A stretch of DNA of 26,904 bases from a virus: positions 1 to 26,904 of IMG/VR virus record IMGVR_UViG_3300030107_003023; one strand, 5' to 3'. Both the position numbers and the translations under genes were made by a program. Under the pieces are notes generated by a model. That model worked only from the letters and a program-made list of their open reading frames with translations. It was not told the DNA's origin and made no database searches. Positions 4,006 through 19,929 of this stretch are shown here, one piece after another. Every line of letters starts with the position of its first letter. Within the stretch, counting starts at the first letter, position 1.

Positions 4006-4211
4006 TATCCCCTCAATAAAACCGTTACTAACGTACCTGCTACACCAGATGTTAACAGAACACCAATCGTTGTCATCAACATACGAAAATCTTTTAATTC
4101 TTGTTTTAACTCAGCTAAATCATTAAATATCGTCTTATCCCGCTCTTCGCAACGTGCAACGTGAGCTTCGAGCCGAGCAGTTAGTTCATGTAATCTTTCT
4201 GTGTTTTCCAT
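4005..4211 (-). CDS. XhlA-like small membrane protein with coiled coil
   Basis: This 68-aa protein begins MENTERLHELTARLEAHVAR, a charged coiled-coil-like helix with heptad Leu and Ala positions (also LAELKQELKDF). It ends with a membrane segment at 43-66 (MLMTTIGVLLTSGVAGTLV) and two basic residues. A cytoplasmic coil plus one C-terminal membrane helix is the plan of XhlA-type holin-associated proteins. It is distant from the holin/endolysin pair at 11020-10249, so it may be a second lysis component or a membrane-anchored assembly factor. Its start and stop both overlap neighbours in TAATG form. Confidence 0.55.
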   Translation of the reverse strand: MENTERLHELTARLEAHVARCEERDKTIFNDLAELKQELKDFRMLMTTIGVLLTSGVAGTLVTVLLRG

Positions 4212-4402
4212 TAGTCGGCATCCGCTATAGTAATTGTTCCTGCCTCAGATAATTTTTTAATTACCACATATTCATTATTATTTTCATCTAACGGTACGGC
4301 ATATTTCACACCATCTACTGTCATTGCAATATGGTCTTTTTTATTTGTTTGAATATCATTAACATATTTAAAAGTGCCTGTTTTTATTTTATTTTCGTTC
4401 AT
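4211..4402 (-). CDS. Small fibre-partner protein B2
   Basis: This 63-aa protein starts MNENKIKTGTFKYVNDIQTN and continues with DHIAMTVDGVKYAVPLDENN and a helix (VIKKLSEAG), ending in TITIADAD. It shares layout and ending with the 62-aa protein B1 (5592-5404), with modest identity elsewhere. It follows fibre copy B directly (TAG then ATG) and is coupled to the next gene by TAATG. It is probably a paralogue of B1 that moved with the fibre gene as one cassette. A chaperone or attachment role is inferred only from this pairing. Confidence 0.55.
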   Translation of the reverse strand: MNENKIKTGTFKYVNDIQTNKKDHIAMTVDGVKYAVPLDENNNEYVVIKKLSEAGTITIADAD

Positions 4403-5404
4403 CTATAGCTCCGCACTTGCTGTATGGTTTGCTTCAATCTGAGGATAATAAGAAGAGCTTGCGTAACAAGATATCTTATGAATAGTAATGTGCTGTGCTG
4501 TGCTATTAGAATTTATCCCTGTAACCGTTGGAGTTGCTCTCATAGTCGTAGGAAAGAAAAGATTTGCGTAACCCAAATTAGTTGACACCCTTCCTCCATA
4601 CACCTGTGCATCGCCTTTATAAAAATACCTCTGACACCGAGAAAGATTTTCTTTAAAAGATTCATATTGAAATTCCGTAGCCGTATTGCCCAGCTCCATC
4701 TGTACGCCAGTCAAATGAAAATTATTGCTGTCACTATCAAAAGCATTTACTTGGCCTACAAACCTATTAGTATTATCGTTAGCCGCCCATGTTTCTTGTA
4801 AAGTACCAGAAGTATAATTAGTGCCACAAACTAATCCCCAGTACACATAAAGAGAAGCATTTGCATCATCACCAAATGCCCCTGTCGTGTCTGGTGGAAA
4901 TGTAATTGTCTTATATTCCCAAGTATTACTAGAACTGACTGTATAGGATTGACTGCAAACTCTAGTATTATCATTATCAAACAAATTAACGATATAAGTT
5001 CCTGTTTTGGTTGTGTTTACCCAAAAAGAAACCGTGATTGCCCTTGCTTGAGCATCACCTTTATTAATAGATTGTAAATCTTGACCTTCAAACACTTGTT
5101 GCAACAACACCAAATCATCTGCGGAAAGAGTCCCAGAAGCAGTTGTGCAGTCCATTTTTAACGATGAATAAAACCCGTCTGGTGTTGTTGTTGATTGAGA
5201 CATTGTAACCACTGTATTGCTATTCGTACCTGCTTCAACAAAACCCCATCTATCTTGAACATGGTAACCTGTGTCTGTATCTCCTACTCCTGATACTGAC
5301 GTAGCTCTTTGACAGATTGCCATATCTCCATTGTAGATAAAGTTTTTGCGTTCACCTTGCTGATAGGACGCTTGGGCTGCTGCTTTTCTTGCTTTACTTA
5401 CCAT
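4403..5404 (-). CDS. Receptor-binding tail fibre protein, copy B
   Basis: This 333-aa paralogue of the 354-aa fibre protein begins MVSKARKAAAQASYQQGERK, with YNGDMAICQRA and VQDRWGF near the front. A beta-rich body follows (AITVSFWVNTTKTGTYIVNL, YVYWGLVCG), then the signature MELGNTATEFQYESFKENLS and RCQRYF near 235-262. The last 70 residues differ from copy A apart from a shared AEL end. The 5' ends of the two genes are also alike in DNA over the leader coding part. It begins on the stop of the small B1 gene, and its own stop touches the next ATG. Parallel copies with unlike tips suggest two receptor specificities or exchange material. Confidence 0.65.
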   Translation of the reverse strand: MVSKARKAAAQASYQQGERKNFIYNGDMAICQRATSVSGVGDTDTGYHVQDRWGFVEAGTNSNTVVTMSQSTTTPDGFYSSLKMDCTTASGTLSADDLVLLQQVFEGQDLQSINKGDAQARAITVSFWVNTTKTGTYIVNLFDNDNTRVCSQSYTVSSSNTWEYKTITFPPDTTGAFGDDANASLYVYWGLVCGTNYTSGTLQETWAANDNTNRFVGQVNAFDSDSNNFHLTGVQMELGNTATEFQYESFKENLSRCQRYFYKGDAQVYGGRVSTNLGYANLFFPTTMRATPTVTGINSNSTAQHITIHKISCYASSSYYPQIEANHTASAEL

Positions 5405-5592
5405 TAGTCTGCTTCCGCTATTGTTAATGTGCCAGCATCTACTTGGCGTTTTATTTCCCGAAAATATCTATTGTCATCACCTAACGAAACAAAAAAAGGT
5501 TTACCATTTACTTTACAGTTAATGCCAATAACTTTTTCATTCCCATCTGGGCGAGAAGGCTCTTTTGTATAACGTGCGTTTTCTATTTTCAT
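5404..5592 (-). CDS. Small fibre-partner protein B1
   Basis: This 62-aa protein starts MKIENARYTKEPSRPDGNEK and contains NCKVNGKPFFVSLGDDNRYF and a short helix (FREIKRQVDAG), ending in TLTIAEAD. The same ending (AGTxTIAxAD) is found in the 63-aa protein encoded at 4402-4211, and both follow a fibre gene of the same family. A beta pair and a helix make up the whole protein. The next gene starts on its stop (TAATG). It could be a fibre chaperone or a small tip protein; I recognise no known family. The distance of three bases after the fibre stop suggests coupled translation. Confidence 0.55.
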   Translation of the reverse strand: MKIENARYTKEPSRPDGNEKVIGINCKVNGKPFFVSLGDDNRYFREIKRQVDAGTLTIAEAD

Positions 5593-5595
5593 AAT

Positions 5596-6660
5596 TTATA
5601 ACTCAGCATCAAAATTTAATTCTGATAGACCGTTTGAATAAAGACTGGAAATACTATCATTCGTCAATCCTGCTATATTTGTGCTTGAAGTTGCATAGAT
5701 AGAGGCATTAGTTCTTGTAAAGTACGAACCAATATCATCTGGGTCGGTAGAAACATAGTTACCAGAAGCACTTGTAAAAGAAAACTCGCCATTATTACGA
5801 CCTATGGTTGAGTGTCCCAACGTAAGTTGATTAGTTCTTTTTTCAACTTTAAAATCAAAGCCATGGCCTCTTGTATCATTAGTATTTAAACTGTTTCCTA
5901 CTCTTGCGTAACTTTGCATTTTAATTACTTCATAGTACCTTTGACATCGTATTAAATTTTCTGCATAGGTTTCATATTGAAAATCAGTAGCTGTATTGCC
6001 AAGTTCTAACTGTACATTTCCTAAATAAAGATGGTCTGTTCCCGCAGTTGTTGTAGTAACATCACTCCAGATAAAAACAATTATATTTGCCGTTGACGAA
6101 GTATCTATTGCTGCTGTAACACTATAATCTGCCCATGACGTAGTGACATTTAAATCTGCTGGCGTGTTTTCATAAGTAAAATTTGATGCTAATGTAGGGT
6201 TTGTACCTTCCACTCCCCAAGCTGAAATCATATCATCAGTAGGCGCATCTGCTGTAGATGACCAAGCAATGATAGCAGCTTTGACATTATCCATATTTGT
6301 AGTGGCATTAACTTTAGCTTTAAACGATAACGTAACTGTATTCCCAATTAAATTTTGACAGTTAATATTTTCAACAATTTGAGCTACACCAAATTTTTTG
6401 TTTGCTGTTTCTACATCTAAATCTAACGCATATTTATTGCCTGTAGGCACTCCAGAAGTAATCTGTGCAACATCCACAACATTGTCAGTATCCGAAAACA
6501 ATTTCCAACGGTCTAAAGTATAATCTGTATCAGCATTACTACCAGATTCCAATGTTGCTCCACGTTGAGCTACTGCAAAATCGCCATTACAAAGCGTGTT
6601 TTTGTTCTCGCCCTGTTGAAAGGACGCTTGGGCTGCTGCTTTTCGTGTTTTACTAGGCAT
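5596..6660 (-). CDS. Receptor-binding tail fibre protein, copy A
   Basis: This 354-aa protein begins MPSKTRKAAAQASFQQGENK, followed by LCNGDFAVAQRG and YTLDRWKL, a start pattern found in many phage tail proteins (N-G-[DN]-[MF]-x-[VI]-x-Q-R-x...D-R-W). A carbohydrate-binding-module-like beta region follows (VTLSFKAKVNA, LGNVQLELGN). Around 218-244 lies the family signature QLELGNTATDFQYETYAENL, then IRCQRYY. The end (about 245-354) is unlike that of the neighbouring copy and ends in DAEL. The conserved base, shared signature and variable end suggest that the last part reads the host receptor. It overlaps the small gene before it by eight bases. Confidence 0.65.
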   Translation of the reverse strand: MPSKTRKAAAQASFQQGENKNTLCNGDFAVAQRGATLESGSNADTDYTLDRWKLFSDTDNVVDVAQITSGVPTGNKYALDLDVETANKKFGVAQIVENINCQNLIGNTVTLSFKAKVNATTNMDNVKAAIIAWSSTADAPTDDMISAWGVEGTNPTLASNFTYENTPADLNVTTSWADYSVTAAIDTSSTANIIVFIWSDVTTTTAGTDHLYLGNVQLELGNTATDFQYETYAENLIRCQRYYEVIKMQSYARVGNSLNTNDTRGHGFDFKVEKRTNQLTLGHSTIGRNNGEFSFTSASGNYVSTDPDDIGSYFTRTNASIYATSSTNIAGLTNDSISSLYSNGLSELNFDAEL

Positions 6661-6826
6661 CGGCTAATTGCTCATCTGTTGGTTTAGATAGCGAAGGGTG
6701 TTTCCACTCTTTAATATAATCACCTTTTCCATCACTATCGTTTTGTAACAAAATCGTTCCTTCTGGACTAAAATCATCATTTGTTAAATCTGGGTATATT
6801 TTTTTAATTTTTGCAAATAAGCTCAT
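6653..6826 (-). CDS. Small XkdW-like fibre-partner protein (57 aa)
   Basis: The open frame extends upstream to an ATG at 6868, but I choose the ATG at 6826. It sits on the stop codon of the upstream fibre gene (TAATG), has an AGGACAGGATA ribosome site, and gives the natural start MSLFAKIKKIYPDLTNDDF. The 57-aa product contains LTNDDFSPEGTILLQNDSDG, then GDYIKEWKH and KPTDEQLADA. A-D-F-x-x-x-G-x-I-x-L-x-N-D followed by I-x-x-W and P-T-x-E-Q-L is like small XkdW-type proteins found after fibre genes. A role in fibre assembly or attachment is likely but not shown. It overlaps the next gene by eight bases. Confidence 0.55.
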   Translation of the reverse strand: MSLFAKIKKIYPDLTNDDFSPEGTILLQNDSDGKGDYIKEWKHPSLSKPTDEQLADA

Positions 6827-8436
6827 TATCCTGTCCTTGAAACTAATACGCCATTCATGTTTGTCCAATCTGCTCCAGCTATTATATTGCCAGAATCTTC
6901 TGAAACACCTCTAAAATATAATTCAAAATAGTCATCAACCCCATTTGCGTGAAGTATACCTGACGCAGTTACAACAGTTGCATAAAGGTCATCGTTAGTA
7001 AGACCTATCATTCTCGCTCTTCCTGCTACCATTGTTTGCGCACCGTTTTTATATAAATACACAATTAAGTCGTAAACATCTGTATTAGACAAATCATAAA
7101 GCTGTAGATTAAATTGGTAATATCCTGCAATTAATGGCGTAAACCGATAATTAGTTGAGCTATCAAAATACCCACCTACGTCAAAATCTTCTGTGTCTAA
7201 AGTTGCTTTTGAAACTACACCAGAACTTACTGTCTGATTGCTACCTACTCTTGCAAAAAAACAAGGGTTAGGCGTAATCGGCATGGTATTAAACTGCACA
7301 CCTTTATTATGCACATGGGTCATAGTCACATCACTATCTGCACCCATGTTAATGACTGCACCATCACTAGTGAAACTTAGGTCATCACCAATAGCAAAAT
7401 CCGCACTAGCTGTAGTCACATTAGATACATTAAAAGGAGCAAAAGCTATAATGTTAAGTTCGTCACTTACTGAAGCAGCAGAACCTAACACTACACTTGT
7501 GCCATTAGATGCGGTGTAATCACTCGTATCTAACACCACACCATTTAATGTAACTACAATCATTCCTGCGGTATACGCTAACGTCTGCGAGGCACTGTCT
7601 GAACCGCTAAAGGTTGTTTGTCCTGCGGTAGCAGAATATTTAAAAAGTGTTAATACTTGTGTAGACGCAGTAAAAGCTGCGAAAGCATAGATAATAAGTT
7701 CATCACCTACAGTAGCTGCATCTGTTAACACAACACTTGTAGTATTTGACGCTGTATAGTCCGTACCATTAATTAATGTTGCTCCATTAAGAACTACAAG
7801 TAAATTCCCAACTGAATACAATAAACTGTTAGAAGCATTGTCATTTCCTGAAAACGTAGTTTGCCCTGCAGTAGCAGTATACTTGTAAGTAGTTATACTA
7901 TTTGTACCTACTTGAGTATCTACATAAGCTTTAACAGACTGTTGTGTAGCTAAATGCGTAGCACTATCAGAAGCCATGTTATCTTCATCTTTAACTGGCA
8001 CTACAAAATCTATGTTCCCATCTGTATCATCATACGAAACATCAATAAAAGTTTCCGTTCCGTCTAACATACCCCCTACATAATCTTCTACTTGTTCTTG
8101 TGTTAATGTCGGAGAAACCGCATCTCGAATATCTTCTATAGCTTTAGCAGTTAAACGTAACTCTATAATATCGTCTGCACTAAATGTAGTTGCAGATGTA
8201 TTATCCTGGGCTCTTACTATAGTTAAATTATTACCGCTTCGTGCGGTAACTTTTACTATTTCTCTAGTAGTAGAATCACTAGCCCGTTCAAGAGTAGCGT
8301 AAAAATAATGCCCACTTGATAAAGCTGGAAAAACACTACCATCATCTACCGAAACACTAGTATCATCGTCAGCTAAACTACCTGTACTAAGTAGTGTCCT
8401 AGCATTATTAGTAAATTTAATGTCTGTAATGGGCAT
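6826..8436 (-). CDS. Tail fibre protein with C1q-like C-terminal head
   Basis: This 536-aa protein has a base domain at about residues 10-100 (LSTGSLADDDTSVSVDDGS, VFPALSSGHYFY, EIVKVTARSGNNLTIVRAQD), common at the base of phage fibres. A helix follows with ATQQSVKAYVDTQVG (about 163-178). Two beta-rich repeats of about 72 residues start near 182 and 263 (TATAGQTTFSG, VVLNG and DYTASN blocks). The C-terminal part, about 390-536, has FFARVGSNQTVSSG, YRFTPLIAGYYQFNLQL and a closing GVLVSRTG. This resembles the jelly roll of C1q/TNF-like heads, with the F-T-x-P-x-x-G-x-Y-x-F motif. Such heads form trimers and would contact the receptor. The stop overlaps the next ATG (TAATG). Confidence 0.65.
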   Translation of the reverse strand: MPITDIKFTNNARTLLSTGSLADDDTSVSVDDGSVFPALSSGHYFYATLERASDSTTREIVKVTARSGNNLTIVRAQDNTSATTFSADDIIELRLTAKAIEDIRDAVSPTLTQEQVEDYVGGMLDGTETFIDVSYDDTDGNIDFVVPVKDEDNMASDSATHLATQQSVKAYVDTQVGTNSITTYKYTATAGQTTFSGNDNASNSLLYSVGNLLVVLNGATLINGTDYTASNTTSVVLTDAATVGDELIIYAFAAFTASTQVLTLFKYSATAGQTTFSGSDSASQTLAYTAGMIVVTLNGVVLDTSDYTASNGTSVVLGSAASVSDELNIIAFAPFNVSNVTTASADFAIGDDLSFTSDGAVINMGADSDVTMTHVHNKGVQFNTMPITPNPCFFARVGSNQTVSSGVVSKATLDTEDFDVGGYFDSSTNYRFTPLIAGYYQFNLQLYDLSNTDVYDLIVYLYKNGAQTMVAGRARMIGLTNDDLYATVVTASGILHANGVDDYFELYFRGVSEDSGNIIAGADWTNMNGVLVSRTG

Positions 8437-8877
8437 TTAAGATACCGTTACTGTCCATGTTACTGTCATAGAGTCACTAGCACCTTTGTTTATAACAGAA
8501 AATTCTGTTCTACAAAGCATAGTGCCGCCTGAACTTGCATTAAAAATACCAGCTTCAGTTAATGCGCCAGTACCTGTACCTGCGGCAAAAGTACAAACAT
8601 AAGTAACTACTGCTCCTGAAACACTAGGAGTAGCTAATGCAGTTCTACTTCCGCTTACAACTGTTTCCAAAGCAGTATTGCCAACAACCGGATCAGTTGT
8701 TCCAGTACCCAACTCCATATGTGTCATGGCTGCAGGACTATTACTAGTTGTTTTCAACATACTAGCTGCAACAAAACCTTTACCTGCGGTTGTTACAAGA
8801 TTAGGAACCTCACGTATAAGCTCCCCATTCATTTCAAATTTTACATTCCCTGTTATATTAAAACCTTCATTAAACAT
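8437..8877 (-). CDS. Small tail-associated structural protein
   Basis: This 146-aa beta-rich protein begins MFNEGFNITGNVKFEMNGEL. It contains VPNLVTTAGKGFVAASML, then HMELGTGTTDPV, LTEAGIFNASSGGTMLCRTEF and a closing strand MTVTWTVTV. The set N-L-V-[TV]-x-x-G-[KR], a G-T-G-T-T-x-P loop, L-T-E-[AV]-G-[IL]-F and a final S-[ML]-T-V-[TN]-W-x-[VI] strand is shared by small proteins found beside tail fibre genes in many phages. It has a strong ribosome site (GAGGATTTTATA), and its stop directly touches the next ATG. Its place in the fibre region suggests a tail or fibre-base component. I know of no proven function. Confidence 0.5.
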   Translation of the reverse strand: MFNEGFNITGNVKFEMNGELIREVPNLVTTAGKGFVAASMLKTTSNSPAAMTHMELGTGTTDPVVGNTALETVVSGSRTALATPSVSGAVVTYVCTFAAGTGTGALTEAGIFNASSGGTMLCRTEFSVINKGASDSMTVTWTVTVS

Positions 8878-8888
8878 TATAAAATCCT

Positions 8889-9578
8889 CTAGCCGTTAAG
8901 CGTATACGTATTAAGTTGACTCTCATTAAGTTTGGAATTATTCCCAAGAATAAGATTAGCAGAAAAACTTTCTGACATAGTAGCTGAATCAGAAAGTGCT
9001 TTCGATATATTTACAGCATGAGTTTCAGCTACATTTACAACATTATTAACAGAATTAGTAGCAATACCTAAACTAAAAACAGTTGTTTCATTAAACCCAA
9101 ATGCATCTGAAGAAGCTTGCCCTACAGACTTAGCATGGCTTTCTCCTACAGAAACAGTATCTGTTTCAGGGTGGGAAACAGCTAATGCTATAGCTTCTAC
9201 TACCGAAGGAGTTTCTGCAAAAGTACGTGCCCAAGTTAAAGCTCTTGTAAAAGACTCTGACATAGTAGCTGAATCAGCTAAAGCTTTACCTACAGACGCA
9301 GCATGGCTTTCAGATACAGTAGCTGAATCAGCTAAAGTTTTACCTACAGACGCAGCATGGCTTTCTGACATTGTAACTGTTTCAGAAAATTCTTGGTCAA
9401 GAACCCTGGCTATAAGGTAAATATCAGCGGCAGTTAAATTAGAATAAGTAGCTAACACATTAGCAAAAGTACTAGAAGTTAAACCTTTAGCATTTGCGTA
9501 ACTGGCAATTAACTTAGCTTCACTATAGCTAATAGTAACTTTACCAGATACTTGTGTTATGCCTACTTTACCAGCCAT
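8889..9578 (-). CDS. Repeat-rich tail fibre protein
   Basis: This 229-aa protein has a helical N-terminal part (ISYSEAKLIASYANAKGL) and then a chain of about 18-residue repeats of the type D-S-A-T-[VM]-S-E-S-H-A-A-S-V-G-K-A-L-A. Two units at about residues 70-105 are nearly identical, and more decayed ones run to near residue 210. Such Ser/Glu/His-bearing periodic units are typical of fibrous shafts in phage tails. It starts on the stop codon of the BppU-like gene (TAATG), and a GAGGATTTTATA ribosome site for the next gene spans the short gap after its stop. A fibre or shaft role fits the neighbours, but the family is not recognised. Confidence 0.5.
   Translation of the reverse strand: MAGKVGITQVSGKVTISYSEAKLIASYANAKGLTSSTFANVLATYSNLTAADIYLIARVLDQEFSETVTMSESHAASVGKTLADSATVSESHAASVGKALADSATMSESFTRALTWARTFAETPSVVEAIALAVSHPETDTVSVGESHAKSVGQASSDAFGFNETTVFSLGIATNSVNNVVNVAETHAVNISKALSDSATMSESFSANLILGNNSKLNESQLNTYTLNG
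9264..9371 (-). repeat. 54-bp direct tandem repeat (two near-identical copies) in the fibre gene
   Basis: Copies at 9264-9317 and 9318-9371 share nearly every base and encode two 18-residue units (SESHAASVGK core). The high identity compared with the decayed repeats on both sides points to a recent duplication by slippage or recombination. Changing copy number would lengthen or shorten the fibre in frame. Confidence 0.8.
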
Positions 9579-9952
9579 TAGTCAAAATCCGCTCTTACAC
9601 TTAACTTAATTAAATCGTAAACAGTCTGTATTTTACTTGAACTGTTTGTAATCTCTATTTCTCCTTCAAAAGTACCGGCTGTATCTAAAGCACCTGTAGG
9701 AAATTCAACTGTACAAACGCCATTTGAAGCATCAGTTACAGTAGCTGTTATTGTAGATTTAACGGTTGTACTTCCTACCTGCCGTATTCTGAATTTTACT
9801 GTAGACCCTGATAAAGATATCGGAGCCCATGTTGTAGAGTCGTTTTCATCTAACGTGGCCCCACTTGCTGCAGTATTGCTATCTTTAAGAGTAAAAGTTA
9901 ATAACGGTAAATGGTCCCCGGTTACTAGTTTAATTGTCTCTGAATATGCCAT
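9578..9952 (-). CDS. BppU-like N-terminal domain tail/baseplate protein
   Basis: This 124-aa beta-rich protein contains the pattern GDHLPLLTFTLKDSN near the start, then SGSTVKFRIRQVG, CTVEFPTGALDTAGTFEG and a final strand YDLIKLSVRADFD. The run of G-D-x-x-P-x-L-x-x-T-L-x-D followed by L-[ST]-G-[SA]-x-V-x-F-[RK]-[IM]-[RK] is that of the Ig-like N-terminal domain of baseplate upper proteins (BppU_N). In this phage it stands alone, so it may be an adaptor that ties fibre proteins to the tail. Its ribosome site is weak, and the stop overlaps the next start (TAATG), which suggests coupled synthesis with the repeat-rich fibre protein. Confidence 0.6.
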   Translation of the reverse strand: MAYSETIKLVTGDHLPLLTFTLKDSNTAASGATLDENDSTTWAPISLSGSTVKFRIRQVGSTTVKSTITATVTDASNGVCTVEFPTGALDTAGTFEGEIEITNSSSKIQTVYDLIKLSVRADFD

Positions 9953-9958
9953 AGTTTG

Positions 9959-10249
9959 TTACCATTTTACTTTATCTGCCCAATATGCTGCAGACATTTT
10001 GCCTTTAGCAATGTTTTTAGAATGGCGGGCTTTAAAGGATTTTCTTTTGGCTTTCATCCTAGCGGATTCCCCTTTCTTCGGTTTTCCTGCAGTTGAAGCT
10101 CCTTGCTCGCCAAATCTAATAGTTTTTATTTTAGCACCTTCCTTGGCAACTACAATATGAGACTTTTTAGGATGATTCGGGGTACGTTTAGGCTTGTTAT
10201 ACCCACTAACCCCGGCTCTAGCTAGTCTCGGATCTTTCTTTGCTGACAT
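9959..10249 (-). CDS. Small basic phage protein, conserved type of unknown function
   Basis: This 96-aa protein is rich in Lys, Arg and His. It begins MSAKKDPRLARAGVSGYNKP and contains KRTPNHPKKSHIVVAKEG, IRFGEQG and RKSFKARHSKNIAKGKMSAA, ending in YWADKVKW. I recall this pattern as a common small protein of marine phages, possibly the group named DUF6321, but could not search. The basic charge and the FKARH..NI segment suggest nucleic acid binding or a packaged virion protein. It is coupled to the holin by TAATG overlap, and the next gene begins six bases after its stop. Function is not known. Confidence 0.6.
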   Translation of the reverse strand: MSAKKDPRLARAGVSGYNKPKRTPNHPKKSHIVVAKEGAKIKTIRFGEQGASTAGKPKKGESARMKAKRKSFKARHSKNIAKGKMSAAYWADKVKW

Positions 10250-10623
10250 TATTTTTTAAATCCTTTAATCCCCCGTATACCAAAAGATGCCGCAATTGAC
10301 GCATACATAGCATAAGTAAACCAACTAGGGGCTGCTTCTAATGCTACAAACCCCTGCGCTATATAAGGTTGCATCTGGGGAATAAACGATAAAGCTATGA
10401 TAACTATAAACAAAATAGTCCACGCTTCATCTTTCCATGAATCCGCTGACGCTTCAGCCATAATCTTTTCCCAACCTGCTTCGTGGGTAGCAGCCACTTT
10501 CATCACTTCAGCTTCTGCATTAGCTTTTGCAACTTGAGCTTTTGCTTTAGCTTTTGACTTAGCCACACGTCCTTCTACAAAAGTGTTGGCTAAATTAGCA
10601 ATCGGTCCTAAAAATCCTAGCAT
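10249..10623 (-). CDS. Holin of the GTA-type 3TM family
   Basis: This 124-aa membrane protein begins with a hydrophobic amphipathic segment (MLGFLGPIANLANTF). A Lys/Ala/Glu-rich helix follows to about residue 58, then the motif ADSWKDEAW and a membrane helix at 67-84 (TILFIVIIALSFIPQM). A second hydrophobic segment lies at 101-118 (WFTYAMYASIAASFGIR) before a Lys-rich end. The S-W-K-D-E-W motif before the first strong helix and the S-F-G-I-R motif after the second match the holin group known as GTA_holin_3TM. It lies next to the M15 endolysin, with a one-base gap before it and a TAATG overlap after it, which supports a lysis role. Confidence 0.8.
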   Translation of the reverse strand: MLGFLGPIANLANTFVEGRVAKSKAKAKAQVAKANAEAEVMKVAATHEAGWEKIMAEASADSWKDEAWTILFIVIIALSFIPQMQPYIAQGFVALEAAPSWFTYAMYASIAASFGIRGIKGFKK

Positions 10624-10624
10624 A

Positions 10625-11020
10625 TTAATAGCTCCATATAGTAGGTCTTGGAAACTGTTCGGAGGGTTCCATCATATCTAAATGAATAAAACGTGATGCA
10701 GCATCCCCTTTTTGACTAATTCCTATACCAGTAAAATATTCTAATTCTATCGCTAGATTTAAAACATTATATGCGTCCTGATAAGCAACTACAATGTCAG
10801 CAGCTAATCCATGTGCATGTGCCCCCGGCCTGGTCTTTTTCATTTCTATGGGGTGCTTTTCAGGATTTCTGTAACCACTTGATATTACCATACTTTTTCC
10901 GTATTTATGCCTAAGTTCCTGTAAAGCATCAAGAAATATAGGCCTCATAATACATACACCAGAAGCAGAGCATTTAAACTCGTCTTCTGAAAAATTAGGA
11001 TATTTGTGCCATTCGATCAT
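10625..11020 (-). CDS. Endolysin, M15-family peptidase (zinc D,D- or L,D-endopeptidase type)
   Basis: This 131-aa single-domain enzyme opens with YPNFSEDEFKCSASGVC, the usual F-x-x-x-E-F-x-C start of M15A peptidases. It then has VISSGYRNP (45-53), the metal motif HAHGLAADI with His68 and Asp75, and FIHLDM with His113 as third ligand, with Asp115 beside it. All expected ligands are present. Enzymes of this family cut peptide cross-links of peptidoglycan. No signal peptide is seen, so release would need the holin encoded immediately downstream (one base gap). The ATG is preceded by AAGGT. Its place between the ejection and fibre genes forms a small lysis cassette. Exact bond specificity cannot be told. 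Confidence 0.85.
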   Translation of the reverse strand: MIEWHKYPNFSEDEFKCSASGVCIMRPIFLDALQELRHKYGKSMVISSGYRNPEKHPIEMKKTRPGAHAHGLAADIVVAYQDAYNVLNLAIELEYFTGIGISQKGDAASRFIHLDMMEPSEQFPRPTIWSY

Positions 11021-11025
11021 AATAA

Positions 11026-14000
11026 TTACCTTATATTATTAAGGATAGGCATTAATCTTACCCACTCCCCCTTACCAAAAGAATCCCAAAGAGCATCAGC
11101 TACCGGAATTGACCCAATAACAGGGTTGTCCCCCCACCTACTACTATTTGCAGCCATAACACCCATTGATAATGGACCTAGCCACCCAGCTTTTTCAATT
11201 AACTCAAATGTATATTGGCCAGTAGGAGTATAATCACTTCTAAATGTTTGCCCAGTAGCTTCTCTAACTCCTAAAGCTTCATTAGGAATAATAGGCCCAA
11301 GACCTAATTGAAGTAAATATTTAGCGAGTTCTTTCATTTCTATGCCCAACGCTGCTAAAGGTAACATAGTGCCAGCAGCTAGCAACATTAGCATAGCTGC
11401 TCCTCCAAAATGTCCGTCTTCTGAATACCGGTTTTTTATTTCTCTGCCAGCCCCACCAATAACTACTTTACCGTAAGAGTAGAAAAATTGTTTAAGTTGA
11501 AACAAAACAGAAAACCAGGGATTGTTTGCCCAATTAGGTCGTTGTGCTGGATTAGGTCTTATTATTGATTCATCTACAAATCTTGCTATTGCATCTCTAA
11601 CCTTTTCTCCTTCTGGAGTATCAAAACCAAAACCATTATCAACGCTAGAATCACCAGAGTTCCAAGCTAAAATATCACTTAACTCTAACCCGGGAAACTC
11701 TTCTAACCATCTTTGGGCTTGGGCTTTTTGTTCTTGAGTAGCTGTGCTATCAGGGCCTAAAGTTTTAGAAAGATTTATTAAATAAGATCTACCCATAGAA
11801 GCTGCAAATACTCTAGTAAAACGAGTCCAAAAAGATAATCCAGTATACTTAAACCAAGTTTTCATAGTGCTTCGAGCCCAGGTGTTTGCAAAATCCATTT
11901 CTCCTACAGCAGTAAAAGCTACTTCTAATCCATCATAAGTAGAAGCCCCTACAGCTCTAGCAAAATCAACTCTTTCTTCATAAGGTCGATTCTGCATTTC
12001 CTGCATAGAAGAAATTAAATTACCAAAACTTTTTTGCCTTAGTATAACTGCGCCTAAATCCGGCAAAGAAGCAAAAACTGTAAACAGTAATGTTGTCATA
12101 ACAGTTAATACTGAAGATATGCTGTTAAACTGCCGCATGTAACTAGGTAAAGGTTCTACCCGGCCAAATTGTTTATTAATTGCATCTTTTAAAACAACTT
12201 CTAATTTTTCTCTATTAGCAAAATATTGATCCCTACCAGCTTCATTTACTTCTCCAGTTTGAGTATCAATAAATTCTTCTGGAAGTCTTACGGTTCCATC
12301 TGGGTTATACTTAGGACCAAACTGTTCATCAACAATACCTTGAACTATAGTGTCTAAAGCTTTCTTGCCGCCTTTTCGTTCCAGTTCTACTTTACGGGTT
12401 ATAAAATGTATATAACTTAATAAAGCTTGAGGAGCTTCTTGAAGAAGACCGGCTTTTCGTAAAGTTGAAGTATCTATACCATCAAAGTCTAAAGATCGTT
12501 CTTGGTTTAAAATGTTTGCAATCTCGATACCGTTTTCAAGAGGATTGTCTATCAAACCTTTAACAATCATTGCGGCTTCATCTACAGTAGGAACTTTAGG
12601 ATTTTTATTTAACTTAGGATCAGAAAGTATTTGTACTAATTTATTTTGGGCTTCTACACTTTCCATTAAAAGAATCATATCTATTTGTCTTGGAAAATAA
12701 TCCCCTCTTTTTCTAATAGTAACCCCATCAACTTTTGAAATATAAGAATCGTAAATATACTCTAGTAAATTTTTACGTAATCGAATTGCTTTATTTTTAA
12801 TTTCATCACTAAAATCTGGTAAGTTTGCAATATCTTCTGTAGCAATAGATTCATTTTCAGCAATTTCAAAAATTGCTTTGATATCAGGGTTTTGCCATTC
12901 AGTACCTTCTTTTAGTTTAGAACCAAGAATAGTTTCAGCACGATAAATAAAACGTCTTTCAGCATTACCTGCTAATTGGTGAAACCCTGCTATTTCTTTT
13001 GATTGAGATTGAGCATGAAAAAATTGACCAAGTTTTACGCCAGAAGGCCCAAGTGTTCTAAACCAGTTATCACTTGATGCTAAAAATTTAGCCCCAAGTC
13101 TAAACGGACCGCTTTGTAACATTTTTCTACCCATGTTTTTAACATAGGCTATAGCTTTTGGAGAAGTATTTTTAAGACTCTGCCCAACCCCTGCAAGTTC
13201 AAAAGCCTGAAAAGTACTTTTTCCTGCAGAACTATCTTTAAAAATACCAGGGATACCTGTTCCATCATTAATTCTACGTTCTGTACCATGATTAAATTTT
13301 AATTTATCTATAGCCTGGGTAATAAATTTTTGAGTTTGAACATCTGCTCTAAACCTGATTTCAAAAGCTGGAAAAGCTTCTCCTAAAACATTTGCAAGAT
13401 TATTAAAAAGTCTTTTTAGTTTATTTGCAATTTCTTTAATCCAGCTTTCTGCTACATTTGTAGCTTTAGTAGTTTCCCGCATTAACCAACTACCAACTTG
13501 GTCAGCTATATATTCATTAAGACCTGTTTCGCCATTAAAATATTGATGGTTTGTAATATTTATAGGTTCTTTTCTTACTACTGCTGCTTTTTGTATTAAT
13601 TCTATTTTTTTAGCTTCAAAAGAATTATTAAGATTTTTCCAAATCGCACTATTTTTTGTACTTGCTTCTAAAAGTGTGTCTATTGATTCTCGAACAAAAG
13701 TATGACCTAGTTCATGTGCAAAAACAGGTAACATTAATTCTAAAGATACATCTTTAGATTTATCCCGTACATAAACTCCAGCTGCATTTTCTTTTACAGC
13801 AAAATCTCTCATAACAATAATGTTGCTATCACCTAAAGGAACATTCATACCAAGAGGCCATTTCCCATTATTTCTTACAAAATCATTTATTACTTCATCT
13901 ATTCGAGAATCAGCATTAGATTGCACTTCGCCTAAAGACTCGTCTACTACTCCTTCAAATCTTTTTACCGCTTTTAAATAAGAATTTGCTACTTGCCCAC

Positions 14001-17000
14001 TAACATTAGCCCCTGTATATTTTTTAGTAATAGCTTCTGTAACTTCGCCTTCTTCAAGTATTTCTTTAAATATTAACAAACTTTTATTATTAGGCTGATC
14101 TTTTAAAGCGTCATTAGTTTGACCTAAATATTTATTTACAATCGTATTAAAATGCCCATAAGTATCTCTAAAAAAACCTTTATACGTATCCCTGTTGTCT
14201 ATTAAGTCTGATAATAATATGACATGTTGAGGAGTTTTAAGTTTAAGTAGATTAAATGCCCTTGACGCAAAATCTTTAAATGCTTCATATTTTCGATAAA
14301 GATTTGTTTCCTGCTCACTAACTTTACCTTTTGATTTTGTTATAACAAAATCAATATTTTCTTCTTTAACAAATTCATCATTTTCCCACAATCCTTCTTC
14401 TACCGTACCGTCGGTATAGGTAAAAGTACCCTGTCCGTGATAGTTACCATCCTTAAATTCACCGACATACTGGTCGCCATCGGCAAAGGTAAAGGTACCC
14501 TGTCCGTGCGGTTTGCCATCCTTGTATTCACCGACGTATTTATTACCATTGGGAAAGGTATAGGTGCCCTGTCCGTGCCTCACGCCATCCTTATATTCAC
14601 CAACGTATTTTTCACCATTGGAATAAGTATAGGTCCCCCGTCCATGCCTTTTACCATCCTTAAATTCACCGACATAAAATGACCCATCTTTATAGGTCTC
14701 TCGTCTTGCTGGTTTTTTAGCAGTAACTTCCTCAAGCTTTCCAAATAAACGAATACCTCTACTCCAATTATTTTTTATATTATGAGCTTTATATAAACCT
14801 CTATTATTTTGTTTAATAATTTTATTTACGGGAGTATCGTATTGAAGCTTTGAAGTAGGGTCATAACTTCTACTAGTAAATAAACCTTCTACAATTTCTG
14901 CTTGTGTTAAATCAGCAAAATCTCCTTCACCTTCAAACTCAACGTCATAAGCTTCCACACTTCCATCTGGATTATATGCTCGTTTACGATATAACTTATC
15001 TCTAGTAGGATCTATTATTGCTTGATCTAACTCTCTTATATGTTTATTTTCTACTTCCTCGCCTATGTAATCCATAATAGCTTTATTTATAGTTGTATAG
15101 TCCATAGACTGTTCAACACTAGAATCGTATAAATCCATATTTCGAGATTCAAAATACCATTCTTTAAATTCAGGGCTATATTTAATAAAATGAACTTTGC
15201 CAAGAAGCTCTTTAGCAGCAAATTCTAAAGTTCTTATTTTATTATCTCTTTCTAAATTTGCGGCTCCTGCAAAACCTTCTTCTGACATATCAATAGCTAC
15301 TTCAGGTTCTGCGTTCTTAAGATTTTCAATCTGTTTAAGAAAAGCTTTATACCGTAAATACTGGGTTTCTCCCGGTACAGTGTAACGAGGAGAAGAAGCG
15401 GGTAATGGGGCTTTGGTAAGAAAGTAATCGGCTAAAGTAAATGGATTATTAGTTACTTGGCCTTTAGCATCCCGTGTTTCAAATGTAGTGGCAGTTTCTA
15501 GTATGTCAGAAAGTTCTTTATTTGCTTCCGATAGCCTAGAAAAATCTTGTAACACCCCATTTCTAATTACAAGTCTTGCTAAAAATATTTCTCCATTCGT
15601 TCCTACATGGCCGGGCACTATCTCATTAGGCATTACAACAGGCATATTGTTAGCAACATTTACATAAGTTGTAACTTTTTCTCCGTCTTTAATATCATGT
15701 TTTACCCTAAGCCTGCCTACATTGTTTTTATAAATTTGAGTTTCTGTATCACTTAAAAAATCAAAAATATCTTTATTATTTACTTCTATAGTATACCCTA
15801 GGCTTTTTAACTCTGTTACAGCCCTACTTAATGCTAATTGATTTGATTGTTCACGAGTTATCCCTTCTCCAACTAAAGCAGTATCTGTAGCTACATTTAT
15901 AGCTTTACCATATTTAATTACATTACCTAATGTAATCTTACTACCTTCGGGTTTTAAAGTAGCTTTTTTACCTTTATCTTTAGTTGAAGACGATTGATGA
16001 TCTGTTTTAGGACCTTTTAATACAAAAATAGAATCCCTTGCACTTTGGGATAACAATTCGCCAACCAGTCTATACGTCCATTCTGTAGTATTGTAAGAGT
16101 CTTCTTTATAATCCGTATTTAGTGCATTAACACGATCAGCAATAGCTTCTGAAACTAATACATCTTTAGATTGAGACACAATCCTAAATTGATTTTCTTC
16201 AAGTTTTATATAAATAAAATTAGGGTTTCCTGCTCTTTGGTTAGCTTCTAAAGAACTTATGAAATTTTTTACTAAAGCATCACTAGCAGTTTGTTTAAAA
16301 CGCCTAAAGTTATTTATATCCTCTGCAATTCTTTGTCTAACATCAAAAGGTACACTTGGATCTGCAACTACTTGTTCTTCTACGTTTTCTACAATAGTAG
16401 TATCTAATTCGTTAGCTATTTGAGTTTGAATAGTCCTAAATTCGTTTTCTATTTTTGCAGGGTCTTCATGAATAGTTTTTGCCAATCCAGTTTTATTTTT
16501 AGCAACATAAGCTTCATAATCTTTCTGGGTATTTCTTACTGCATCCTCCAGTTGTTTTGAAGTTTGTTGAGGTCCAATAGGAACTATATTTCTTTCAGCA
16601 AAATTTCTATTTTTTTCTTTGTATTGTTGAAATGATAAAAGAGCTGTATATGCTTGTTTAAGTTTTGAAAGTTTTTTATTAGCAGTTTGTTCTACTAATG
16701 GTATGTCAGAAGGAGTTTCTTGTACTAACTCACCAGGAACAGTAGCCTCAACATTAGTAACCCCAAGATTTATTAATGCATCTATATCAATATTGCGATT
16801 AACATAATTTTCTGGGTCGCTTTGAGCAACAATTAAACTTTCAGCTTTTTTCCAGTTAGTTTCAAATTTTTCTATTTCGTCAGGTTTTGTAATTTTAGAT
16901 CTATTAACAGGTGCAAACGGTTGTAACCCAGGAGCTCTACGTTCTTCAGCTCCGACCATTTCTTCACGAGCTGTTTCAAGTGATTGTCTTTGTAATTGAC

Positions 17001-19929
17001 CTCTAGCGCTTTCTATTTGATTATTAATATTATATAAAGAAGTTTGAGACTCACTAGATAAGTTGCCTTCTGCCTCTACTATTGCTTTTTCTAGCCTTTG
17101 TATTTTATTATTAATTGCTTGTATTTGTTCTACTTCTTCAGGATGAGTTAATTCTAATCGGTCTTGTGTTCTTCTAAGCCCACCAGTAAATAATTTATTA
17201 TAAAGATCTACTTCATTACGAATACCAGCAGCAACATTATTTCTTAAAACATTATCTAAAAATTCACGTATTTCCGGGTCTACCCCTTCAATTCCTATAG
17301 GTTGTGCTATATCACGTTCTGCCCGTATTTGATTAAGTATTTGAACTTTATCTGCTACTAACTCTTTAATCTCATTTTCTGTTGTTTTTATAATATTATA
17401 AGTTCCTGCATCATCAATTCTAGCTTGATCTAATATTGCATCACGTTCTTTTGAAAGATCGCTTATAGTTTGTACTAAACCATTTAAAGGTAACGCAACC
17501 CCGCCTTCACCTGTTTCTTCGTAAGCTGCTGTTTGACCTAAAGTATCATCACCAGTAGATTTAGTTTCTACAATTTGTCTGCCAGTTAATGCAGCAGCTA
17601 AAGCAATAGTTTCTACTGTAGCACTTCTTTGATATTGTTCAGGTAAACGAGCTCGTTGTCTTTCAGCAGCTTCTTGTGCAGCAGCTAATGCTTCTTGATC
17701 TGTACCATCTACAGCTTGAGCAAAAATAACTCTAGAAGAGCCGTCTTCAGCTTTTATTTCAACTTGTACAGAAGTATCTGCATTAGCAGGAGCAACTGCG
17801 CTATAGCCAAGAGCAGCTTTTAAAGATTCAGGTGTAGCCCCGCCTTTTAAAACACCATTAATAATATTTTCGTTTGTAGAAAATATAAGGCCATCTTGAG
17901 CGTCAGGTTGCGCAGAAGCTGCTTTATTTACCCTAGCTACAGAAAGATTTGTATTTTTAACTTTTACAGGGTCGTATCCTAAACTGTCAAGGTCTATACC
18001 GTATTTACGTGCTATGTTATTTACGTTTTCACGATTAGATACCCACGTTGCATCTTTAGCCCCTAGGCCGGTTAATTCTAACTGAAGATCCAAATCAGCG
18101 TTAGGTTCTGCTGTAGGCCTTCCAGATAATACAGTTTCATCATCGACCCCTGTTTCTGCTGTATTTATCTTACCTAATACAGATTTTTCCCTAACCCTGT
18201 TTAACATTTCACGGGCTAGTTTAGGTGTAGCAGCAAGAGAGCCACCAGCAGCTCCAAAAGCTTTACCGGCCATTATGCCGCCAAACAAAGATTCACCCAA
18301 TCTTAAATAGGTATCCTGCAAAGTATAAGTAGGATCTATTAATAAACGCTGCGCTGCTACAACTGCTTCTTGCGAAGTTTCTGCAACACCTTCTCCTATT
18401 CCACCTTTTAATGTAGTACCGCCTACTGCTTTTGCAAAATTCTTTAAAGGTGAATTACCAGGCGCTGTAGCAGCTTTTGCCCTAGCTACTTTAAATAAAG
18501 TTTTTCTTAAATAATCTTCTGTATAAGTATCTATTAAAGCAATAGGCCCACCTAAAATTGCTGATTTTATTGCGGTATCAATATTTAATTCTTGGCCAGC
18601 CTCTTGAAATTCTTCAAGAGCCATTGGAGCACCTATAGCATAAGAAGCCCCAAAACCTCCTACACGGCCTCCTAGTTCAGCTCTATCTGTCCATTTTCTA
18701 CGAGTGTGTACGCCTTCTATAAGCTCTTTACTATCAGTATCAAGAGTTTCTTTTTTAATTAATTTTTTAGTTAAAATATCACCAAATATTTTTTTAAGAG
18801 ATGCTTTTCCTGCTACAGTTGCAAGTCCACCAGCAGCTACAACTGCAGGAGACATAGTCGCTAAGGTTGCCCCTACAAACCAACCAGCTAAAGATTCAAT
18901 ACCGTAAGGAACTGCTGATCCTACAGTTTTAACCGATACATCTAGAAATGTGTCAAGATCAGGCTCTTCTAATAATTGATCAAAAGTAGCAGTACCATCT
19001 AGTAACTTAGAAGCTTCTTCGTCCCGTACTCTTGCTCGTTCAAGATTTAAAGCTGCAGCTTCTTCATCACCTAATATAGTATTATAAATAGCACCAAGCC
19101 TATCGAAACTTGAAAATACCCCAGCTTTACCAGAGGATACTGCTCTACCAAATAACTCCCCCCTAGAATCAATAGCGTCTGTATACACAGGATCATACCC
19201 TATAGAAGAACCTTCATATAAGTCTTGTGCTACTTGTTCAGTAGTCATTATAGGATCGCCAAGTACACTAGTAGCGGCAGCTACATTACTTGCAAAATCA
19301 ATATCTCTTGATGTCATAGGACCCGATGGGGGTTCTTGAGTTACAGGTTGGGTAGTATCTGGTTCAGCAGCTTGTGCTTCAGGAAATACAAAATTAAGGG
19401 CAAGACCAGCAATATCAAAAGGCTTTTCTTCACTTGGAGATACAGCGGCTATTTGTGGTCCTGCTCCAATTGTGGGAGCCCCCCAAACACTAGCCCAATT
19501 AGAATCTGGCCGTTCTTCTATACCCCCAGGAATACTAGTCCATGTTTTATTTAAATTTCTAAAAATATCTTGTTGAATTTTAGGATCATCGGACTCTAAA
19601 TCTGTATCAAGATCTCTACCTGTTCTTTTTTTATAATCATCTCTGGCTAATTCAGCAGCAGCAATTCTTTGGCTTTCGGGAGAAAAATCAGGTAAATTTA
19701 ATTTTTCTTTATAAGTATCCCAAGTAGGAGCAATAAATTGAAATGACCCTGCTCCTGAACTTTTTAAACCCTGATTAGGCCCTGATACAATAGGAACATA
19801 TTGTCTTGGGTGATCTGAATAATCATCAAAAGTAGTACCCCCGTAAATTACATTTGGCTGACTATTGCTTTCTGCTCTAGCTATTTGGTCTAAAAGTGCT
19901 CCCATTCTTGGGGATTCTGATACTGCCAT
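11026..19929 (-). CDS. Giant multidomain ejection protein: GH104 lytic transglycosylase, MORN repeats, zinc peptidase motif
   Basis: This 2967-aa protein sits in the T7 gene 16 position. Residues 1-140 match the lambda R endolysin pattern: catalytic Glu20 in IARAESN, then DYSDHPR (36-42), SSGAGSFQF and WDTY (57-73), and DFSPESQ (81-87). This predicts cleavage of peptidoglycan glycan strands during DNA entry. A Pro-rich linker and Ala/Gly-rich hydrophobic stretches follow (about 334-380, 425-475 and 545-565). Coiled-coil-like helices lie at about 820-995. Four MORN repeats occupy 1752-1843. HELGH at 2072-2076, with NEYIAD (Glu2139) 63 residues on, gives a gluzincin-like metal site. Hydrophobic helices lie near 2605-2628 and 2841-2863. 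The family resembles the large polyvalent proteins that phages inject with their DNA. The GH104 and zinc sites look intact; protease action on host or virion proteins is inference. The start follows the upstream TGA by one base. Confidence 0.8.
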   Translation of the reverse strand: MAVSESPRMGALLDQIARAESNSQPNVIYGGTTFDDYSDHPRQYVPIVSGPNQGLKSSGAGSFQFIAPTWDTYKEKLNLPDFSPESQRIAAAELARDDYKKRTGRDLDTDLESDDPKIQQDIFRNLNKTWTSIPGGIEERPDSNWASVWGAPTIGAGPQIAAVSPSEEKPFDIAGLALNFVFPEAQAAEPDTTQPVTQEPPSGPMTSRDIDFASNVAAATSVLGDPIMTTEQVAQDLYEGSSIGYDPVYTDAIDSRGELFGRAVSSGKAGVFSSFDRLGAIYNTILGDEEAAALNLERARVRDEEASKLLDGTATFDQLLEEPDLDTFLDVSVKTVGSAVPYGIESLAGWFVGATLATMSPAVVAAGGLATVAGKASLKKIFGDILTKKLIKKETLDTDSKELIEGVHTRRKWTDRAELGGRVGGFGASYAIGAPMALEEFQEAGQELNIDTAIKSAILGGPIALIDTYTEDYLRKTLFKVARAKAATAPGNSPLKNFAKAVGGTTLKGGIGEGVAETSQEAVVAAQRLLIDPTYTLQDTYLRLGESLFGGIMAGKAFGAAGGSLAATPKLAREMLNRVREKSVLGKINTAETGVDDETVLSGRPTAEPNADLDLQLELTGLGAKDATWVSNRENVNNIARKYGIDLDSLGYDPVKVKNTNLSVARVNKAASAQPDAQDGLIFSTNENIINGVLKGGATPESLKAALGYSAVAPANADTSVQVEIKAEDGSSRVIFAQAVDGTDQEALAAAQEAAERQRARLPEQYQRSATVETIALAAALTGRQIVETKSTGDDTLGQTAAYEETGEGGVALPLNGLVQTISDLSKERDAILDQARIDDAGTYNIIKTTENEIKELVADKVQILNQIRAERDIAQPIGIEGVDPEIREFLDNVLRNNVAAGIRNEVDLYNKLFTGGLRRTQDRLELTHPEEVEQIQAINNKIQRLEKAIVEAEGNLSSESQTSLYNINNQIESARGQLQRQSLETAREEMVGAEERRAPGLQPFAPVNRSKITKPDEIEKFETNWKKAESLIVAQSDPENYVNRNIDIDALINLGVTNVEATVPGELVQETPSDIPLVEQTANKKLSKLKQAYTALLSFQQYKEKNRNFAERNIVPIGPQQTSKQLEDAVRNTQKDYEAYVAKNKTGLAKTIHEDPAKIENEFRTIQTQIANELDTTIVENVEEQVVADPSVPFDVRQRIAEDINNFRRFKQTASDALVKNFISSLEANQRAGNPNFIYIKLEENQFRIVSQSKDVLVSEAIADRVNALNTDYKEDSYNTTEWTYRLVGELLSQSARDSIFVLKGPKTDHQSSSTKDKGKKATLKPEGSKITLGNVIKYGKAINVATDTALVGEGITREQSNQLALSRAVTELKSLGYTIEVNNKDIFDFLSDTETQIYKNNVGRLRVKHDIKDGEKVTTYVNVANNMPVVMPNEIVPGHVGTNGEIFLARLVIRNGVLQDFSRLSEANKELSDILETATTFETRDAKGQVTNNPFTLADYFLTKAPLPASSPRYTVPGETQYLRYKAFLKQIENLKNAEPEVAIDMSEEGFAGAANLERDNKIRTLEFAAKELLGKVHFIKYSPEFKEWYFESRNMDLYDSSVEQSMDYTTINKAIMDYIGEEVENKHIRELDQAIIDPTRDKLYRKRAYNPDGSVEAYDVEFEGEGDFADLTQAEIVEGLFTSRSYDPTSKLQYDTPVNKIIKQNNRGLYKAHNIKNNWSRGIRLFGKLEEVTAKKPARRETYKDGSFYVGEFKDGKRHGRGTYTYSNGEKYVGEYKDGVRHGQGTYTFPNGNKYVGEYKDGKPHGQGTFTFADGDQYVGEFKDGNYHGQGTFTYTDGTVEEGLWENDEFVKEENIDFVITKSKGKVSEQETNLYRKYEAFKDFASRAFNLLKLKTPQHVILLSDLIDNRDTYKGFFRDTYGHFNTIVNKYLGQTNDALKDQPNNKSLLIFKEILEEGEVTEAITKKYTGANVSGQVANSYLKAVKRFEGVVDESLGEVQSNADSRIDEVINDFVRNNGKWPLGMNVPLGDSNIIVMRDFAVKENAAGVYVRDKSKDVSLELMLPVFAHELGHTFVRESIDTLLEASTKNSAIWKNLNNSFEAKKIELIQKAAVVRKEPINITNHQYFNGETGLNEYIADQVGSWLMRETTKATNVAESWIKEIANKLKRLFNNLANVLGEAFPAFEIRFRADVQTQKFITQAIDKLKFNHGTERRINDGTGIPGIFKDSSAGKSTFQAFELAGVGQSLKNTSPKAIAYVKNMGRKMLQSGPFRLGAKFLASSDNWFRTLGPSGVKLGQFFHAQSQSKEIAGFHQLAGNAERRFIYRAETILGSKLKEGTEWQNPDIKAIFEIAENESIATEDIANLPDFSDEIKNKAIRLRKNLLEYIYDSYISKVDGVTIRKRGDYFPRQIDMILLMESVEAQNKLVQILSDPKLNKNPKVPTVDEAAMIVKGLIDNPLENGIEIANILNQERSLDFDGIDTSTLRKAGLLQEAPQALLSYIHFITRKVELERKGGKKALDTIVQGIVDEQFGPKYNPDGTVRLPEEFIDTQTGEVNEAGRDQYFANREKLEVVLKDAINKQFGRVEPLPSYMRQFNSISSVLTVMTTLLFTVFASLPDLGAVILRQKSFGNLISSMQEMQNRPYEERVDFARAVGASTYDGLEVAFTAVGEMDFANTWARSTMKTWFKYTGLSFWTRFTRVFAASMGRSYLINLSKTLGPDSTATQEQKAQAQRWLEEFPGLELSDILAWNSGDSSVDNGFGFDTPEGEKVRDAIARFVDESIIRPNPAQRPNWANNPWFSVLFQLKQFFYSYGKVVIGGAGREIKNRYSEDGHFGGAAMLMLLAAGTMLPLAALGIEMKELAKYLLQLGLGPIIPNEALGVREATGQTFRSDYTPTGQYTFELIEKAGWLGPLSMGVMAANSSRWGDNPVIGSIPVADALWDSFGKGEWVRLMPILNNIR
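14401..14676 (-). repeat. Four tandem MORN repeats (69 bp each) inside the giant ejection protein gene
   Basis: Exactly four units of 23 codons encode residues 1752-1843. Each follows the MORN pattern Y-V-G-E-[FY]-K-D-G-x-x-H-G-x-G-T-[YF]-T-[YF]-x-x-G. A degenerate half unit (YKDGSF) precedes them and a decayed unit (EEGLWENDEF) follows. Sampled lines across the array are about 38-57% G+C, while nearby lines of the same gene fall to 17-25%. The array also uses GGC/GGG, CAC and ACC codons that are rare elsewhere in the gene. MORN repeats form an elongated beta hairpin stack used in binding, often near membranes or lipids; what this array binds cannot be read from sequence. Confidence 0.9.

Follow-up and report, generated by a model that had tools for sequence, protein, structure and literature searches.

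Cassettes of a phage fibre gene and a chaperone gene are already known. In phage Pam3, gp25 is a two-domain chaperone whose N-terminal domain of ~55 amino acids (aa) holds the TNF-like fibre tip and whose C-terminal helical domain trimerises (PMC9608196). The fibre gp26 of phage V22 binds hosts only with the downstream gp27 (PMC7289586), and T4 gp38 and Mu Tfa are cited there as adjacently encoded chaperones that phage fibres need. In this study, we analysed the sequence of a marine-type phage, IMG/VR record IMGVR_UViG_3300030107_003023, in its whole length of 26,904 bases (the window). It carries an array of three fibre genes, fibA, fibB and fibC, each followed by a small gene. Judging from gene content and sequence comparison, the small genes are probably tip-specific fibre-assembly partners, either chaperones or temporary caps, that are co-inherited with their fibres in exchangeable cassettes. 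The genes of the array and its right-hand neighbour are as follows.

6826..8436, minus strand: fibA, a 536-aa fibre with a stem and a C-terminal C1q/TNF-like tip (tip ~6829-7311); phrog_8469 tail fibre, E 2e-22; tip assigned by a C1q-like profile.
6653..6826, minus strand: 57-aa XkdW-family partner of the C1q-type tip of fibA; PF09636, E 4.4e-7, 30 bits against a cut-off of 24.6.
5596..6660, minus strand: fibB, a 354-aa fibre with a leader, jelly-roll, hinge, variable C-terminal domain and -AEL end; phrog_4492 tail fibre, E 9e-33.
5404..5592, minus strand: partB, the 62-aa PxD-family partner of fibB; no Pfam match.
4403..5404, minus strand: fibC, a 333-aa fibre with a leader helix, a jelly-roll resembling carbohydrate-binding module (CBM) family 4, a hinge helix, a variable beta domain and an -AEL end; phrog_4492, E 5e-55.
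4211..4402, minus strand: partC, the 63-aa PxD-family partner of fibC, modelled with AlphaFold2 (AF2) as three strands then a helix; mean predicted local distance difference test (pLDDT) 95; 75% identical to a partner in contig L008.
4005..4211, minus strand: g4005, a small gene of 68 aa that adjoins the array and forms its conserved boundary on the right.

All six open reading frames (ORFs) were present on the minus strand where the first-pass annotation had placed three fibre and small-gene pairs. The array was bounded on its other side by a 146-aa gene (8437-8877). The junctions along the array were, in order, a 1-nucleotide (nt) overlap, an 8-nt overlap, a 3-nt gap, a 1-nt overlap, no gap and a 1-nt overlap. 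The gaps were therefore within the 3 bases claimed for all joins, but one overlap was longer. The fibre ORFs stand above chance because of the PHROG 4492 matches, and the small genes because they are conserved as families and because of the high pLDDT of the partC model.

The array resembles Pam3 gp24-gp25 in its N-terminal helical, putatively docking part, its TNF-like distal tip and the adjacent chaperone gene (PMC9608196). However, Pam3 gp25 is 162 aa long and includes the helical trimerisation domain, whereas the partners here are single domains of 57-63 aa with no detectable sequence relation to gp25. The Alteromonas phage modules V22 gp26-gp27 and A5 gp8-gp9 are also similar, as a marine fibre and its cognate chaperone are swapped together between distant phages (PMC7289586, PMC10579305). 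Their chaperones have 195-239 aa with DUF4376, and each module has one fibre, in contrast to the three-fibre array with two partner families in the window. In Puniceispirillum phage HMO-2011, gp28 (364 aa, ending SAEL) is a homologue of fibC with 38% identity over 97%, and gp27 (58 aa) is a homologue of partB and partC, in the same order and followed by a 68-aa gene. Unlike the window, HMO-2011 has one such cassette, after many short fibre-like genes, and it is annotated only as tail fibre and hypothetical. XkdW (PF09636; PBSX prophage; PDB 2hg7), the family of the 57-aa partner, has no established function in the open-licence papers found; here it is tied specifically to C1q/TNF-like tips. 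Genes for carbohydrate-binding domains, C1q and XkdW are among the most variable in marine phage metaviromic islands. The passages considered from the paper on these islands give XkdW as unknown and do not mention tip-partner pairing, the -AEL rule or DNA joints (PMC3909814).

We investigated the relationship between tips and partners with profiles built here for two tip types (CBM-type and C1q/TNF-like) and three partner types (PxD, XkdW and APC), which were run on 182 sequences. Among 288 distinct tip genes, a CBM tip was followed by PxD in 135 cases and a C1q tip by XkdW in 86, with no crossed pairs (Fisher p 1e-63, a value not to be taken literally as the loci are related). Both pairings were found in 47 contigs, and none was discordant. 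At loci picked by XkdW alone, 49 of 53 CBM fibres were followed by PxD and none by XkdW. Counting backwards from the small gene, PxD came after a CBM fibre in 137 of 138 cases and after an -AEL-type end in all 138, and XkdW came after a C1q tip in 85 of 87. A further 160 contigs, a few of which overlap the earlier set, were fetched by PxD alone to counter selection bias. They were picked with single partner sequences, as the first partner alignment was too variable for scanning; when viral contigs were scanned with fibB as a single protein, no relatives emerged. In these contigs PxD followed a CBM fibre in 146 of 147 cases and an -AEL-type end in 146 of 147, and no CBM fibre was followed by XkdW. 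Eight of eight isolate phages chosen by PxD agreed (T4-like cyanophages, Ochrobactrum, Methylophilales, S-2L and others), several of them with very diverged fibres. In the PxD-picked set, one PxD gene had no upstream CBM fibre. It lies in L198 (1926-2662), after an ORF resembling a head protein that stops abruptly at SAEL (...EGSAEL). This is probably a chimera, either recombinant or from assembly. L110 looks like a frameshifted CBM fibre. These results indicate that, in the sequences compared, tip type and small-gene type are matched almost without exception. The earlier proposal of fibre and partner cassettes, with small genes tied to fibre function, was borne out by this tip-specific pairing.

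Other layouts were also seen. L046, L090 and L096 have a recurrent trio of CBM fibres (~380 aa each) with a PxD gene after the middle one only. L008 has a larger array of the same kind (5130-10683) with several consecutive C1q-tip genes, three of them each with its own XkdW, and one CBM and PxD cassette interleaved among them. At 2580-3338 of L055, a PxD partner and the next fibre, of C1q type, form a single reading frame with PxD at the N-terminus of the fibre; an XkdW and APC gene comes after this fibre gene.

Of the small genes, partB and partC form one family, named PxD here after its VPxD..N..Y motif. The 57-aa partner comes from another family and passes the curated Pfam cut-off for XkdW. 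We found no relation between XkdW and PxD (hhalign probability 0.1%), and partB and partC had no Pfam XkdW match. The two partner families are thus unrelated to each other, but the further idea that the small genes could be unrelated to fibre function is contradicted by the pairing. No Pfam or NCBIfam model was found for PxD, and the PHROG matches of its members were mainly to two families without an assigned function. In two PxD relatives, L077 and L086, a Phage_tail_APC domain was found at the C-terminus (PF16778; E 5e-13 and 1e-12). No C-terminal helical APC/DUF4376 domain was found in any of the three partners in the window, which lie directly downstream of their fibres as two-domain chaperones do. 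Three structural leads were set aside. Chemokine matches of the partC model near Z 5 were taken as a common strand-helix arrangement, a weak match of PxD to PDB 9rku (E 0.0013) was lost with a larger alignment and not used, and the 2kz6 match of L086 aligned mainly over the APC part and was uninformative on PxD.

The fibC model was made from 48 relatives and had a mean pLDDT of 90. It predicts an N-terminal helix at residues 4-13, a jelly-roll at 19-240 (~4685-5350), a hinge helix at 250-258 and a small all-beta variable domain at 261-333 (~4403-4624) that ends in -AEL. The modelled jelly-roll has a CBM4/CBM22 fold, with VIA Z 12.4 and a root-mean-square deviation of 2.8 over 163 residues to 2y6j (CBM4-2), and it also resembles CBM-like domains of phage tailspikes (5w6h, Z 11.2; 7xyc, Z 10.5). 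In this model the domain is carbohydrate-binding-module-like, and sugar binding is only putative. An -AEL-type tripeptide ends 149 of 153 CBM fibres, being exactly AEL in 108 and SEL in 26. In the 48-sequence alignment, mean pairwise identity was 11% over columns 301-328 and 84% over the last three. Because the C-terminus is conserved behind a hypervariable domain, the alignment suggests that the -AEL end makes a constant contact, for which the partner would be the obvious candidate. The tip of fibA is of the other type. Its "C1q" label comes from a profile built here, as fibA itself had no match to the Pfam C1q profile (PF00386); this profile groups the fibA tip with HMO-2011 gp31, which does match PF00386 at 4e-10.

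Several observations weigh against assembly partners as the role of the small genes. For some -AEL fibres (S-H34, Kolga), no PxD gene lies alongside. Shared descent of the loci means that the pairing counts do not represent independent events, and neighbours would also co-vary through tight linkage alone. A fold search turned up nothing convincing for the partC model, with Z reaching about 5 at best. Pam3 gp25 trimerises through a C-terminal helical domain that PxD and most XkdW partners lack, so their mechanism must differ from that of gp25 in some respect. In Bacillus phage Sam46, mutations in an XkdW-like gene altered plaque type, and adsorption was not clearly affected (PMC8190038).

In the main rival reading, the small proteins would stay on the tips of virion fibres as permanent structural caps or parts of an adhesin and help receptor binding, as S16 gp38 and Mu Tfa do. 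Tip-specific pairing would be expected equally from such caps, and the in-frame fusion of PxD to the next C1q fibre in L055 would suit a structural role. However, PxD is far better conserved than the hypervariable domain preceding it, unlike a receptor-contacting adhesin. Moreover, mass spectrometry showed that virions of Pam3 do not contain gp25 (PMC9608196), and gp27 of V22 dissociates from the mature fibre (PMC7289586). We consider a permanent cap unlikely.

The small genes might instead be ordinary operon neighbours with another tail role, paired with tips because short cassettes are inherited as blocks. The genes are mostly 0-10 nt apart, giving strong linkage. Partner similarity also correlates better with the jelly-roll (Spearman 0.34) than with the C-terminal domain; co-variation with the latter was weak (0.12), and we make no claim of residue-level co-evolution. 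On the other hand, the two families keep to the two tip types without crossing, even within one genome and across very diverse phages. Linkage is equal on the other side of the small gene, yet the next gene there varies (another fibre, g4005 or others). These results make ordinary neighbours an improbable explanation.

We next consider the origin of the array. The first-pass annotation proposed local cassettes that were duplicated and then diverged. Such a recent tandem duplication of one cassette would account for the leader, CQRY[YF] signature and -AEL end that fibB and fibC have in common, all of which we confirmed, and for the DNA shared at the 3' ends of the partner genes (last 27 nt of partB and partC, 81% identical). 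Outside the leader, the QxELG...CQRY hinge and the -AEL end, however, the two fibres differ. Alignment of the two genes at DNA level showed conserved leader, hinge and partner 3' end, but divergence was not confined to the last 70-110 residues as had been claimed, since the jelly-roll bodies were only 26% identical in amino acids and 43% in DNA. In the tree, fibB and fibC belong to different clades, both well supported (0.999 and 1.0) and each with relatives in other phages, and their mutual distance ranks 112th or lower of 146 from either side. Compared with its identity to the L008 partner, partC is only 33-36% identical to partB. The first cassette is no copy of the others either, having an unrelated tip and partner type. 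As the likeness is confined to the joints, recombination or gene conversion fits better, and recent duplication appears very improbable.

Cassettes B and C share three direct repeats of substantial length and 74-76% identity, which the repeat search placed at the following joints.

6565..6654 in fibB, copy 5309-5398 in fibC, minus strand: joint 1 (leader), direct repeat D1, 90 nt, 74%.
5936..6015 in fibB, copy 4626-4705 in fibC, minus strand: joint 2 (QxELG...CQRY hinge), direct repeat D2, 80 nt, 76%.
5387..5439, copy at the partC end 4194-4246, minus strand: joint 3 (3' end of partB and start of the next gene), direct repeat D3, 53 nt, 75%.

The same joints were seen in comparisons with related phages. 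DNA identity between fibB and the fibre of L015 was a mosaic, with 87% in the leader, 44% in the jelly-roll, 83% in the hinge, 43% in the C-terminal domain and 96% at the partner 3' end, and an identical run of 35 nt was found at the 3' end between partB and the third-cassette partner of L102. The neighbouring genes of L015 are mostly 87-98% identical in protein to those of the window, but L015 has two cassettes, not three. Its first fibre keeps the stem (83% identity to fibA over residues 1 to ~260) and has a different tip, with a PF16778 chaperone replacing XkdW. In L013, the stem is fused to a CBM tip and followed by one B-like cassette, and L102 retains the window order XkdW-B-C-g4005. g4005 is 96% identical in L015, 94% over 32 aa in L013 and 78% over 40 aa in L102. 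Cassette number and tips thus vary between related phages, as had been expected. From the joint mosaic, the turnover in relatives and the separate clades of fibB and fibC, the array seems to have arisen through unit exchange and not through recent duplication in place, and the three joints are likely crossover sites. A store for switching within one phage, by invertible or retroelement-diversified fibres, would suit the several alternative tips in one genome and was part of the earlier proposal, but it is hardly credible with all cassettes in a single orientation, longest inverted pairs of 31 nt at 71% and 21 nt at 86% that do not flank the cassettes, no inverted repeats of the Mu G-segment type flanking alternative fibre ends in the repeat search, and no reverse transcriptase (RVT_1) match in the record, a 26.9-kb fragment.

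From the anatomy, tip-partner matching, -AEL rule, joints and cassette turnover, all of them sequence-based, we infer the following course for the assembly partners. Attachment of the fibre to the tail is probably through its short N-terminal helix (SKxRKAAAQAS). The CBM-like jelly-roll would come next, and then the hypervariable C-terminal domain, which probably touches the host. The PxD protein (62-63 aa), from the next gene with almost no gap, would serve -AEL fibres, and the XkdW protein would serve C1q/TNF-like tips. Both proteins most likely engage the newly made tip and aid folding and trimerisation, in a role that may be likened to that of the N-terminal domain of two-domain tail-fibre chaperones. 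The size of that domain in Pam3 gp25 and the APC domain on two PxD relatives lead us to read PxD and XkdW as minimal tip-specific assembly partners. The link to chaperones is suggested by this APC domain and by the joint replacement of fibA tip and partner in L015. Fibre and partner would be swapped together between phages, probably by recombination at the leader, hinge and partner 3' end. We tentatively propose that these parts may form a general plug-in system, in which -AEL would act as a docking tag read by PxD, a dedicated family of single-domain chaperones, C1q tips would be read by the unrelated XkdW, and the three joints would allow exchange of entire tip and chaperone units between unrelated phages. 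In the open-licence papers searched we did not find strict XkdW/PxD tip-partner matching, the -AEL rule or the three DNA joints.

Two further genes of the window, both on the minus strand, were observed. Just upstream of the array, 8889-9578 encodes a 229-aa protein of imperfect SESHAxSVGKALADSATMSES repeats. In the 2967-aa protein encoded at 11026-19929, MORN repeats occur in four stretches (PF02493, E 3e-29), and an HELGH motif lies in a region with weak likeness to M13 peptidases. MORN repeats in such a phage protein seem unusual.

These results suggest a testable function for XkdW and PxD, two small families without an established role. The sequence rule of an -AEL fibre followed by a PxD gene of 50-65 aa offers a simple way to look for receptor-binding tips, together with their partners, in uncultured phages of marine and fresh waters. 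It is also predicted that recombinant expression of such fibres would require the co-expressed partner. When phages exchange receptor-binding tips, these tiny genes most likely travel with the fibre.

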